A stretch of 64,000 bases of DNA from Sphingomonas sp. AOB5 (GTDB lineage: Bacteria > Pseudomonadota > Alphaproteobacteria > Sphingomonadales > Sphingomonadaceae), in the NCBI RefSeq assembly GCF_029433115.1, contig NZ_JARNTV010000007.1, forward strand, positions 1-64,000. Reading direction: 5' to 3'. Of the stretch, positions 10,374 through 15,788 are shown one piece after another. The stretch's first letter is position 1; every line of letters begins with the position of its first letter. The notes under the pieces were generated by a model. The model did not search any database. It was given only the letters and a program-made list of their open reading frames with translations, and was not told the origin of the DNA. Made by a program: the position numbers and the translations under genes.

Positions 10374-11570
10374 ATGGCAAAAGCAAAGTTCGAGCGGAAC
10401 AAGCCGCACCTCAACATCGGCACCATCGGTCACGTCGACCATGGCAAGACGTCGCTGACGGCCGCCATCACCAAGATCCTGGCAGAGAACGTTGCGGGCA
10501 ACGCAGCGGTCGACTTCGCCAACATCGACAAGGCTCCGGAAGAGCGCGAGCGCGGCATCACCATCTCGACCGCACACGTCGAGTATGAGACCGATTCGCG
10601 TCACTATGCGCACGTCGATTGCCCGGGCCACGCCGACTATGTGAAGAACATGATCACCGGCGCTGCTCAGATGGACGGCGCGATCCTCGTGGTCGCCGCC
10701 ACCGACGGCCCGATGCCGCAGACCAAGGAGCACATCCTGCTCGCCCGTCAGGTCGGCGTGCCGACCATGGTCGTCTTCCTGAACAAGGTCGACCTGGTGG
10801 ACGACGAGGAAATCCTCGAGCTGGTCGAAATGGAAATCCGTGAAGAGCTCAGCAAGCGCGAGTTCGACGGCGACAACATTCCGATCATCCGTGGTTCGGC
10901 GACCGCAGCCCTGTCGGGTTCGGACGACAAGCTCGGCAAGGACGCGATCCTCGCGCTCATGGCCGCTGTCGACCAGTCGATCCCGCAGCCGGAGCGTCCG
11001 CTGGACAAGCCGTTCATGATGCCGATCGAAGACGTGTTCTCGATCTCGGGCCGCGGCACCGTGGTGACCGGCCGCGTCGAGACCGGCATCGTCAAGGTTG
11101 GCGAGGAAGTCGAAATCGTCGGCATCCAGGAAGCCGTCCGCAAGACCACCGTCACGGGCGTCGAAATGTTCCGCAAGCTGCTCGACGAAGGTCGTGCAGG
11201 CGACAACATCGGCGCGCTGATCCGCGGCGTGGGCCGTGAAGAAGTCGAGCGTGGCCAGGTTCTGGCCAAGCCGGGTTCGATCAAGCCGCACACCGACTTC
11301 AAGTCGGAAGTGTACGTGCTGTCGAAGGACGAAGGTGGCCGTCACACGCCGTTCTTCGCCAACTATCGTCCGCAGTTCTACTTCCGCACGACCGACGTGA
11401 CCGGCACCATCGAGCTGCCGGAAGGCACCGAAATGGTCATGCCGGGCGACAACGTCGCGCTGGGTATCAAGCTCATCGCGCCGATCGCCATGGACGTCGG
11501 TCAGCGCTTCACGATCCGCGAAGGCGGCCGCACCGTCGGCGCCGGCGTCGTCGCGACGATCGAAAAGTAA
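10374..11570 (+). CDS. tuf: Elongation factor Tu
   Basis: 398 residues. It delivers aminoacyl-tRNA to the ribosome. GHVDHGKT at residues 19-26 is the P-loop, [12 protein letters not shown] the G3 region and NKVD the G4 motif. Domains II and III are complete. An AGAAGG ribosome-binding site lies upstream. It is the last gene of the str operon. Only one copy is present in this window. Confidence 0.98.
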
Positions 11571-12190: not shown

Positions 12191-13219
12191 TCAGGACAGG
12201 TCGAGCGCGCTCAGCGGATACTCGTTCTCGATCGTCTCCGCGGAACTCTTGCGCGACGATTCCGACATGGCGATCAGTCCGATCTTCACCAGCGGGCCAC
12301 CCGCGGCCGCCATCTCGATATAGAGCCGCAGAAAATCCTTCAGCCCCGGCGTGAACTTCAGGCTCGACTTCTTCACATAGAGGTACAGCGGGCGGCAGGC
12401 GGCATATTTGCCCGTTGCGATCGTCTCCGCGGTAGGCGCGATGCCATCGATCGGCGCGGCGCGCAGCTTGGTCGGGTTCTGCTCCAGATAGGAGTAGCCG
12501 ATCAGACCCAGTGCCTTGGGGCTCTTCTCCAGCGCGGCGACGATCTCGGCGTGGTTCTCGCCCACTTCGACATAGGGGCCGTCGGCGCGGATGCGCAGGC
12601 AGGCGGCCTCGAACTGCGCCGGATCGCTGTTCTTCAGCAGCTCCTCCGCTTCGGGCATCGCCGCGATACAGCCGCTGCGCATGATCAGCGAAGCGAACAT
12701 GTCACGCGTGCCGCTGGAGCGCGGCGGGCCGAGTACCTGGATCGGGATGGCGGGGAGCGAAGGGTTCACGTCGCTCCAGTTCTTCGCGGTGTTGGGCTTG
12801 CCGCGCGGGTTCGCCGCCAGCGCCAGGTATAGGTCCTTGCTGGTCAGCGAGAGCTTGGGGCCGTCGGTCGATTCGGCCAGGGCGATCCCGTCCAGTCCGA
12901 TGCGGACCTCGATGATGTCGCCCACGCCATTGGCCTTGCACTCGTTGAACTCGGCGCGGGTCATGCGCCGCGACGAATCGAGAATGTCGCGGGGGGCCTC
13001 CGCATCCTTCTTGCAAAAGGCGTGGACGCCGTTGCCGGTGCCGGTCGATTCGATCGCGGGCGCCACGTGCTTGGCGTCCTTCTGGACGAAGGCGGCGGCG
13101 ACGGACTTGGTGAACGGATAGACGGTCGAAGAGCCGGTCACGCGGATCGGTTCCGGGTTCTCGCTGCAGGCCGCGAGCGCGAGCATCGCGAGCGACAGGA
13201 CGGATGTACGCCAGAGCAT
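12191..13219 (-). CDS. PstS-like phosphate-binding lipoprotein
   Basis: A 342-residue periplasmic substrate-binding protein. The signal ends in the lipobox LAAC (Cys18). The mature start IRVTGSSTVYPFT is the PstS phosphate-binding signature, and a second ligand loop, PPRSSGTRDMF, is also present. These proteins bind phosphate for the PstCAB transporter. No transporter genes are nearby, so this may be a stand-alone binding or secreted phosphate protein. The ATG at 13219 has a strong AAGGAGGGG ribosome-binding site; longer upstream open frame is not coding. I saw no clear Pho box. I give no symbol because several PstS-type paralogues exist in such genomes. Confidence 0.88.
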   Translation of the reverse strand: MLWRTSVLSLAMLALAACSENPEPIRVTGSSTVYPFTKSVAAAFVQKDAKHVAPAIESTGTGNGVHAFCKKDAEAPRDILDSSRRMTRAEFNECKANGVGDIIEVRIGLDGIALAESTDGPKLSLTSKDLYLALAANPRGKPNTAKNWSDVNPSLPAIPIQVLGPPRSSGTRDMFASLIMRSGCIAAMPEAEELLKNSDPAQFEAACLRIRADGPYVEVGENHAEIVAALEKSPKALGLIGYSYLEQNPTKLRAAPIDGIAPTAETIATGKYAACRPLYLYVKKSSLKFTPGLKDFLRLYIEMAAAGGPLVKIGLIAMSESSRKSSAETIENEYPLSALDLS

Positions 13220-13358
13220 GTCATTCCCCTCCTTGAACAAAGGGGGCGCCGGGCACGCGCGCCCGGCCTTATCCTTGCCCCGGCGCGTTACCGGGTCATG
13301 ACGTCGCGCGAATGCGACGGATAGCGGCGGGCGCCGGAAAATTCCCGCAGGGCAGGGG

Positions 13359-13388
13359 TTGCTTTTCACCCCCGCTTGCGCGTAGAGG
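13359..13388 (+). promoter_or_regulatory. Possible rpsJ promoter
   Basis: TTGCTT at 13359-13364 and TAGAGG at 13383-13388 with an 18 nt spacer, about 70 nt before rpsJ. The match is moderate. A promoter is needed here because the genes upstream run in the opposite direction. Confidence 0.42.
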
Positions 13389-13459
13389 CGCGCCTTCGTT
13401 TGAACAGTAACAGCAAGAGTCCCGGCAACGGGGCCCGCTCTTTCGCATTGGCAGGACCC

Positions 13460-13771
13460 ATGGAAACGCAGAATATCCGTATTCGCCTGAAGGCGTTCGA
13501 TCATCGAGTGCTCGACCAGGCTGCCGGCGACATCGCCGACACCGCGCGCCGCACCGGCGCTCTGATCCGTGGTCCCATCCCCCTCCCGACCCATGTCGAC
13601 AAGTTCACGGTCAACCGTGGCCCGCACATCGACAAGAAGTCGCGCGAGCAGTTCGAAACCCGCACTTACAAGCGCATGCTCGACATCGTTCAGCCGACTC
13701 CGCAGACCGTGGACGCGCTCATGAAGCTCGACCTTGCTGCCGGTGTCGACGTCGAGATCAAGCTGGCCTGA
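13460..13771 (+). CDS. rpsJ: 30S ribosomal protein S10
   Basis: 103 residues ([19 protein letters not shown]), full length. It is part of the 30S head and, as NusE, of the NusB antitermination complex. The true start is the ATG at 13460; the open frame continues upstream to 13376 but that part is leader. Unusually, a 316 nt structured gap separates it from rplC. Confidence 0.98.
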
Positions 13772-13809
13772 GCCAGTTCGTCGCATCCCTCCTGCAGAGG
13801 GGTGGACAG

Positions 13810-14053
13810 GGAGGCGTGTCTGACGTAAAGGCGCGCCTCCACGAGATTCGGCAGGTCTCGACAGGGTGCGAATCGCATCCGACGCAAGATCGCCACTGAG
13901 GACGTCTTCGGACGAACTCATCGACAGATAGGGATACCGCCGGGGCTTGCCCCGGGTCTGCGTCCCCCGTCGTCTCCGCTTTCGAGCGGGGTCAGCCCGG
14001 ACGGGGGCACGCACTATATTTTTGGGCTGTAGGCACGCCCCCGCGGGGCTTTT
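13810..14053 (+). other. Structured RNA-like region between rpsJ and rplC
   Basis: The 316 nt rpsJ-rplC gap has no convincing ORF but several stems: 13810-13816/13834-13840 (GGAGGCG/CGCCTCC); 13940-13945/13950-13955 (CCGGGG/CCCCGG); an outer 13964-13971/14000-14007 (CCCCCGTC/GACGGGGG) enclosing 13974-13980/13985-13991 with a TTCG tetraloop; and GCCCC/GGGGC (14037-14041/14045-14049) followed by TTTT. TATATT at 14015-14020 could be a -10 box, but no good -35 is seen. The arrangement looks like a leader or attenuator controlling the rest of the S10 operon. Confidence 0.6.
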
Positions 14054-14087
14054 CTCGCGTGGGCCTCTGTTAGAGGAGTGATTGGTC

Positions 14088-14846
14088 ATGCGCACTGGCG
14101 TGATCGCGAAGAAAATGGGGATGACCCGACTGTTCCAGGACGACGGCCGCCATGTGCCGGTTACCGTTCTGAGCCTCGAGGGCGTCCAGGTTGTCGGCCA
14201 GAAGACTGAAGACCGCGACGGTTACGTCGCCGTCCAGCTCGGCGCCGGCACCGCCAAGGCGAAGAATGTCGCCAAGCCGCAGCGCGGCGTTTTCGGCAAG
14301 GCTGAAGTCGAGCCCAAGGCAGTCGTCGCGGAATTCCGCGTCGAGGCCGATGGCCTGCTCGAAATCGGTGCCGAAATCTCGGCCGACCACTATGTCGCCG
14401 GCCAGTTCGTCGATATCCAGGGCAAGACCCAGGGTAAGGGCTTCCAGGGCGGTATGAAGCGTTGGGGCTTCGGCGGTCTGCGCGCCACCCACGGCGTCTC
14501 GGTCTCGCACCGCTCGCTCGGTTCGACCGGTCAGCGCCAGGATCCGGGCAAGGTCTTCAAAAACAAGAAGATGGCCGGTCACATGGGCGACAAGAACCGC
14601 ACCCAGCAGAATCTCGAAATCGTCGGCACCGACGTCGAGCGCGGCCTGATCTTCGTCAAGGGTTCGGTCCCTGGCTCGAAGGGCGGCTGGTTGTTCGTCA
14701 AGGACGCCGTGAAGGTCGACCGCCATGCGGACGCGCCGTTCCCCGCCGGTCTGAAGACCGTCGCCAACAACAACGACACCGCTCCCGCGGAAACCCCGGC
14801 CGATACGGTCGAGGCTCCGGAAGCGACCGAAGGCCAGGAGGGCTGA
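14088..14846 (+). CDS. rplC: 50S ribosomal protein L3
   Basis: 252 residues. It starts [16 protein letters not shown] with GAGGAG upstream of the ATG. The Gln-containing loop ([20 protein letters not shown]) that is the target of PrmB methylation is present. It is longer than the roughly 210-residue E. coli protein because of an acidic Thr/Glu/Ala-rich C-terminal tail of about 30 residues. It is an early 50S assembly protein near the peptidyl-transferase centre. Confidence 0.97.
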
Positions 14847-15475: not shown

Positions 15476-15788
15476 GAAGCAGGCAGCCGCGATCGACAAC
15501 CGTCACTATGACGTGATTGTCGCGCCGCACATCACCGAGAAGTCGACCATGGTTTCGGAGCACAACGCGGTTGTGTTCCGGGTCGCTGGCGACGCCACCA
15601 AGCCCGAGATCAAGGCTGCCGTAGAGGCGCTGTTCTCGGTCAAGGTCACCGGCGTCAACACGATCGTCCAGAAGGGCAAGACCAAGAAGTGGAAGGGCAA
15701 GCCCTACACCCGGTCTGACATCAAGAAGGCTATCGTGACGCTCGCCGACGGCGACCAGATCGACGTTACCGCGGGGGTCAACGCGTAA
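15468..15788 (+). CDS. rplW: 50S ribosomal protein L23
   Basis: 106 residues ([17 protein letters not shown] is the conserved N-terminal signature). It sits at the tunnel exit and docks trigger factor and SRP. It overlaps rplD by 8 nt (ATGGCTAA) and rplB by 1 nt. Confidence 0.97.

Follow-up and report, generated by a model that had tools for sequence, protein, structure and literature searches.

The 316-nt gap between rpsJ and rplC in the 64-kb stretch of Sphingomonas DNA analyzed here (the window) appears to comprise a promoter and a pseudoknotted, autogenous ribosomal-protein leader of the rplC transcription unit, a reading in which we place fair, though by no means full, confidence. Its position, covarying pseudoknots, promoter-like sites and, in some relatives, terminator-like hairpins point to a cis-regulatory leader of this unit. 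The features considered are collected in Table 1.

Table 1. Genes, promoter-like elements and predicted RNA features in and around the rpsJ–rplC gap, in window coordinates.
Feature	Position	Strand	Remarks
rpsJ (S10)	13460–13771	+	
-35 element TGGACA (predicted rplC promoter; spacer of 17 nt)	13803–13808	+	single match in 64 kb; kindred sites in long-gap relatives
-10 element TAAAGG, then GC-rich CGCGCC	13826–13831	+	sequence pattern
Variable 5' part of predicted leader	13839–13930	+	widely different among relatives; predicted start ~7–9 nt after the -10
P1 5' strand GGGA, then invariant UACC	13931–13934	+	pairs with 13963–13966
P1c hairpin	13940–13955	+	13940–13945 with 13950–13955; 91.5% of cells paired; both-side changes at 6/6 pairs (alignment A1)
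P5 5' strand UGCG	13959–13962	+	pairs with 14010–14013; crosses P1
P1 3' strand UCCC	13963–13966	+	7 and 5 compensatory events at two middle pairs
P2 5' strand CCGUC	13967–13971	+	pairs with 14000–14004; 9 compensatory events, three pairs
P3 hairpin within P2 loop	13974–13991	+	sequence variable
PK 5' strand CAGCCC	13993–13998	+	pairs with GGGCUG 14024–14029; crosses P2 and P5
P2 3' strand GACGG	14000–14004	+	
P5 3' strand CGCA	14010–14013	+	
PK 3' strand GGGCUG	14024–14029	+	
P4 hairpin	14037–14064	+	outer stem 14037–14040 with 14061–14064; covariation
CCUCUG motif	14064–14069	+	directly before the Shine-Dalgarno sequence
rplC Shine-Dalgarno GGAG	14075–14078	+	weak pairing with CUCU possible
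rplC (L3)	14088–14846	+	first gene of the presumed regulated unit rplC-rplD-rplW-rplB-rpsS-rplV-rpsC-rplP-...

The rpsJ–rplC gap is long and strongly structured

The gap runs from the end of rpsJ (13771) to the start of rplC (14088), with tuf located upstream of rpsJ (10374–11570). The gap strand folds at -168.2 kcal/mol, compared with -140.7 ± 5.4 kcal/mol in 100 dinucleotide shuffles, all of which it surpasses (z = -5.12), and both the length and the strong structure that an earlier note had ascribed to this region on the basis of its sequence are borne out. The same note stated that the remaining spacers of the S10 group are under 15 nt; this holds for those checked from rplC to rplP (rplC, rplD, rplW, rplB, rpsS, rplV, rpsC, rplP), which are overlaps or 1–12 nt. 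Its view that the gap contains no convincing ORF agrees, as judged by look, with the list of ORFs touching the gap, which consists of frames of 30–68 aa, that of rplC, and two antisense frames, 218 and 634 aa long, lying mostly over neighboring genes. The 634-aa frame, open from 12191 to 14095 on the minus strand and spanning rpsJ and the gap, is probably an effect of high GC content. A conserved leader peptide is unlikely given how much relatives vary in the length and sequence of the gap's 5' part. The TTCG-capped hairpin that had been described inside a second stem was found at about 13898–13919. Several relatives (L007, L018, L075, L077 and others) carry short GC-rich palindromes (GCCGGC...GCCGGCATGACG type), similar to dispersed repeats, in the 5' half of the gap, which is variable. 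Comparison with relatives places the conserved portions of the gap at 13931–14029 and, for P4/CCUCUG, at 14037–14069.

A conserved RNA precedes rplC across one family

A search with L3 yielded 80 named loci, mostly from Sphingomonas, plus Stakelama, Sphingobium, Sphingopyxis and others, and by these names the window's own family is taken to be the Sphingomonadaceae. The gap measures 154–387 nt in 78 of the 80 loci; the other two have gaps of 62 nt (L089) and 102 nt (L094) and lack ATACCG, which was found in 92 distinct cores drawn from named loci and further relatives. Across the family, a conserved RNA of approximately 100 nt is followed by the P4 hairpin, a near-invariant CCUCUG and the rplC ribosome-binding site, and the element thus has one general trait of ribosomal-protein leaders (r-leaders), a conserved structured RNA directly upstream of ribosomal-protein genes. 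Loci repeating others (L001, L019–L021) and one with neither gene (L013) were dropped.

A covariance model (R1) built from 63 sequences was searched in 296 sampled genomes of the order and matched, once per genome, in 199 of them, comprising 199 of the 213 genomes of the family versus none of the 83 others; 77 non-matching genomes of this sample were available only as a sum, in a listing ordered by kinship. With laxer filters, one further genome of the family matched (E = 2.2e-9), bringing the total to 200, and 15 other weak matches were obtained (E 0.017–1), of which the 11 that became loci have no rplC nearby. In a class-level sample, matches were restricted to 4 of 289 genomes, all from the same family. 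The match lay within the rpsJ–rplC gap in all 71 match loci examined among the 200 genomes with a match, and in 22 loci from other families of the order this gap spans 2–11 nt. Nine short-gap loci (seven from genomes of the family and two named loci) carry no core and show only CCUCUG, with or without P4; hence, the core is dispensable in some loci. One locus titled Bacillus sp. 2B10 (L095, RPSH01000020.1) has a sphingomonad-like S10 block with the element, and either its name or its assembly looks wrong.

Covariation points to a pseudoknotted core

Pairing was evaluated on a sequence-only alignment of 63 sequences (A1), from which one mis-cut locus (L061) had been dropped. RNAalifold, run on A1 with no structure supplied, recovers P1, P1c and PK. 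The fraction of paired cells in A1 is 98.8% for P1, 91.5% for P1c, 97.9% for PK, 83.3% for P5 and 66.3% for P2, which is misaligned. Cells changed on both sides number 178; shuffles give 63 ± 6, and sliding the partners gives 11–67. Two cruder measures barely rise above the shuffles: pairs with a both-side change number 14 against 12.2 (a value reached in 53 of 500 shuffles), and further pair types 41 against 37.5 (reached in 44 of 500).

Because MAFFT misaligns P2 in A1, P2 was counted with anchors, which were used to read the helix strands in 159 of the 160 distinct long gaps (L206 was not parsed). Under this reading, in which the anchors pick the first fitting motif and so introduce a mild bias, the P1, P2 and PK shuffles retain the parsed letters and the P5 null repeats the best-offset choice, full P1 complementarity is observed in 148 of 159 loci (maximum of 119 in 1,000 shuffles), the inner triple of P2 is complementary in 156 (maximum 131 in 1,000), the outer triple of PK in 146 (maximum 141 in 1,000) and P5 over its full length in 128 (maximum 90 in 500). 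The strands of each helix take several complementary forms across the 159 loci: GGGA/UCCC (102), GAGA/UCUC (38) and GGAA/UUCC (8) for P1; GUC/GAC (128), GAC/GUC (9) and GCC/GGC (8) for P2; CAG/CUG (89), CAG/UUG (33), CGG/CCG (4), CAA/UUG (3) and others for PK; and, for P5, UGCG/CGCA (56), AGCG/CGCU (35) and a single UGAG/CUCA.

Compensatory events, defined as changes of both sides of a pair on the same branch of a tree inferred from rpsJ and partial rplC, were then counted for individual pairs, giving 7 and 5 in P1; 1, 6 and 2 in P2; 7 and 1 in PK; and 6 and 1 in P5. A change on the 3' side is accompanied by one on the 5' side, within the same branch, in 7/7 and 5/5 cases at two P1 pairs and in 7/11 at the second PK pair, where random placement is expected to yield fewer than one each (p = 0.001), and the first P5 pair shows 6 same-branch events against 1.9 expected (p = 0.006). 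On this tree, there is no significant same-branch excess at P1 pair 1, P5 pairs 2–4 or PK pairs 1 and 3. By the criterion of compensatory change on the gene tree, displayed by each of P1, P2, PK and the P1-crossing P5, the core is pseudoknotted. A pairing used in model R1 (P1b, 13938–13940 with 13960–13962) was replaced by P1c and P5, which RNAalifold and covariation favor. The earlier note had proposed a structured leader before rplC and had named a lack of covarying pairs in relatives with the same gap length as one of two findings that together would speak against it; in relatives with a similar gap, pairs do covary, and P1, P2, PK, P5 and P4 all lend support to the proposal.

P1 crosses P5 with zero nucleotides between them and P2 crosses PK with one, an ordinary H-type geometry in both cases, in which the helices of each pair could coexist. 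Folded alone, the core is only modestly better than shuffles (z = -1.9), and the nested minimum-energy fold merges P5 and P2 into one 13-pair hairpin (z = -3.6). Since this fold leaves P1 open, it allows for a two-state switch, in which positions 13959–13971 would pair either in P1, P5 and P2 of the pseudoknot or in a long extended P2 hairpin (13959–13971 with 14000–14013), and which may respond to a small molecule or to a signal of ribosome assembly instead of a ribosomal protein. The conflict between a minimum-energy fold lacking P1 and the covariation that backs P1 and P5 is what such a switch would explain. It is nonetheless an unlikely alternative, given that P1 and P5 could form together as an H-type pseudoknot, that covariation does not separately support the central part of the extended helix, and that the gene context consists of ribosomal proteins.

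Two promoter-like sites alternate among relatives

The pattern T[TGA]GAC[AG]-N17-TANNSS occurs exactly once in the window, both strands counted, at 13803–13831 within the gap; among 93,254 control positions, taken from rplC and the sequence after it, none carried this in-gap pattern. A second pattern, T(T/G/A)GA(C/T)G-N17-TAA, lies across the end of rpsJ, so that the TAA stop codon is itself the -10 box; the bases following this TAA are most often GGG, TGG or AGG. The loci in which the two sites can be compared are the 105 of 160 distinct long gaps in which the seventh residue from the rpsJ C terminus is Asp. Among these, 81 present the overlap site only, 22, including the window, the in-gap site only, 2 neither and none both (Fisher test, 1.1e-20), the overlap pattern being the looser of the two (any TAA stop, the Asp codon given, the Val codon not GTC) and partly fixed by rpsJ coding. 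Because the two sites alternate in this manner, rplC and the genes that follow probably have their own mRNA with a structured leader.

GTT encodes the Val preceding this Asp in 70 of the 81 overlap loci, and GTC does so in 21 of the 22 in-gap loci. Overall, this rpsJ codon is GTT in 72 of the 105 loci, and other Val codons of rpsJ and rplC are GTT in 12–14% of instances (loci with GTT and TAA). A TAA stop codon of rpsJ, which is part of the definition of the 81 overlap loci, is also seen in 5 of the 22 in-gap loci; the rplC stop codon is TGA in 61 of 70 loci with GTT and TAA. The overlap site is absent in the window because the rpsJ Val codon is GTC and the stop codon TGA. In 55 of the 160 loci, mostly with Asn at the promoter codon, the promoter patterns were not recognized, and the promoter claim is therefore restricted to the Asp loci.

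An internal promoter had been suggested in the earlier note, with TATATT as its -10 box. Comparison supports a promoter-like site, located at 13803–13831, but not that box: TATATT is present at 14015–14020, in a variable linker, and was rejected as not conserved (judged by eye). A promoter-like site is also seen before rpsJ (13359–13388), consisting of TTGCTT, 18 nt and TAGAGG, followed by the same CGCGCC as the in-gap -10 element; from their sequences, the two may be promoters of one type.

The region next to the rplC start codon and terminator-like hairpins

Counted with fixed anchors (L081, not anchored, was left out), P4 shows 40 compensatory events over four of its six pairs (13, 4, 15 and 8), and all six pairs form in 117 of 158 loci versus at most 49 in shuffles. 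The P4 stretch folded alone is no better than shuffles (z = -0.55), and neither is the CUCU/GGAG hairpin. In all 169 loci (the 160 distinct long gaps and the nine short ones), CCT[CA]T[GA] precedes the rplC ATG by 19–27 nt; it takes the exact form CCTCTG in 160 and is followed in each by a purine-rich Shine-Dalgarno sequence, the P4 pairs in this survey having been taken by best match. This motif, mostly together with P4, is also present in loci without the core, as might be expected of a passive element that has no ligand and acts as a processing or stability structure, setting the S10-to-L3 ratio or guarding the 5' end. We deem this less probable still than a two-state switch, since conserved loops (UACC and others), two crossing helices and, in some lineages, terminator-like hairpins exceed the needs of a simple stabilizer.

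A terminator-like hairpin of 8–14 pairs with a U-run, credible as a terminator, lies between PK and P4 in 18 of 159 relatives, which is suggestive of a cis-regulatory site. These 18 were counted by eye from 36 calls, the remaining 18 being left out as located within aptamer helices or as poor hairpins; in one of those counted (L099), the best-scoring hairpin takes in the PK 3' strand. The window has no terminator-like hairpin between the PK 3' strand and P4. The GCCCCCGCGGGGC+TTTT at 14037–14053, in which an attenuator had been seen earlier, represents an alternative local pairing within P4 and is not retained in relatives (judged by eye); it was discarded in that role. Attenuation is thus plausible only in the terminator-bearing relatives. 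An independent small RNA acting in trans could start at a promoter of its own within the gap and end at such a hairpin, but this is very improbable, as 141 of 159 loci lack the terminator and would read on into rplC, and the location before rplC is constant in 71 of the 71 match loci examined.

Comparison with known leaders

The S4 alpha-operon leader is a pseudoknotted r-leader with crossing helices upstream of ribosomal-protein genes; compared by description, the element before rplC is alike in its crossing helices and differs in genes and lineage. The E. coli S10 leader acts by termination plus translation. This gammaproteobacterial leader precedes rpsJ and has L4 as its ligand, according to passages of PMC2704228; it too is a leader of the same gene block, bound there by a ribosomal protein, but it is set apart by location, since the window's element lies after rpsJ, not 5' of it, and would exclude rpsJ. 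Among 20 candidate ribosomal leaders from one paper (Eckert and Weinberg 2020, PMC7247131), as described in passages of it, is an alphaproteobacterial L2 r-leader predicted inside the S10 gene block, like the element described here; it sits before rplB, from where it regulates rplB onward, and not before rplC, and the window offers no intergenic room for it because rplW and rplB overlap at 15788. The rpsJ motif RLC-47-1, in passages of PMC11109978, is likewise a candidate ribosomal leader in the S10 block, but belongs to the 5'-UTR of rpsJ in Peptostreptococcaceae.

Rfam 15 gives no match at or above gathering score in the window, the best one overlapping the gap being CC3552 (20.3 bits vs. 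50). The element is not described in the open-license full-text literature, among the matches listed, and goes unmentioned in passages of PMC7247131, PMC11109978, PMC2704228 and PMC5770649, in line with the earlier remark that no described element was known at this position. Ribosomal leaders are known as a kind; the rplC element differs by its position, its promoter and a fold outside the Rfam families.

Proposed mechanism and origin

For the favored reading of an autogenous leader, we infer the transcription start, the ligand, the direction of control and the translational mechanism as follows. The promoter and a 5' leader RNA of ~250 nt would separate rplC and the following genes from rpsJ. 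The leader would fold into a compact pseudoknotted domain (P1/P1c, P2/P3, P5, PK), followed by P4 and CCUCUG beside the rplC ribosome-binding site. A ribosomal protein encoded downstream, when in excess over rRNA, would bind the pseudoknotted domain; L4, favored on precedent only, would be the first choice, with L3, L2 or L23 possible. Binding would stabilize a conformation whose P4/CCUCUG/Shine-Dalgarno region does not permit translation to start; where a lineage has a terminator-like hairpin ahead of P4, transcription would be halted too. Such a feedback loop is most likely, being the economical reading of the leader. Imitation of the L2 site in 23S rRNA helix 66 was also considered, prompted by GAUACC and GGCUGC, both of which we take to occur in E. 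coli helix 66; it was rejected, as the helix 66 region of a Sphingomonas 23S rRNA (same-genus genome L176), located by eye, does not contain GAUACC. Similarities to the L4-binding portion of domain I, viewed by eye, form no part of the proposal.

A wider tree, from which L089 was left out, was rooted on a single locus from another family; the other families are not monophyletic in it. Of eight short-gap loci, seven diverge close to the base of the group (supports 0.2–0.98), and the eighth, L150, sits among long-gap loci. This branching order suggests that P4/CCUCUG is the older part and the pseudoknot domain the younger, and that a loss followed at least once. L150 keeps CCUCUG in a gap of only 37 nt; L189, with which it groups (support 0.92), contains the full element, and L150 may be a case of such a loss. 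A more far-reaching interpretation, which we advance tentatively and at somewhat less than even confidence, is that a new class of RNA, in which two H-type pseudoknots (P1/P5 and P2/PK) interleave and which works as a conformational switch, took control of the S10 block from rpsJ in the Sphingomonadaceae, with a promoter built in many species from the rpsJ stop codon, and that its stepwise origin may still show, from no gap through P4 with CCUCUG to the full pseudoknot domain.

The S10 block is a very large ribosomal-protein cluster, and beyond the best-studied groups it is, to our knowledge, unclear how most bacteria balance it. An RNA that spans a family, has firm covariation behind it and shows both a defined distribution boundary and possible intermediates provides a directly testable regulator, as well as an example of how a regulator may arise within an ancient operon, and the two alternating promoter-like sites, one with a stop codon as its -10 box, constitute a natural experiment on the overlap of coding and promoter sequences. 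Most likely, the leader lets sphingomonads tune their production of ribosomal proteins.
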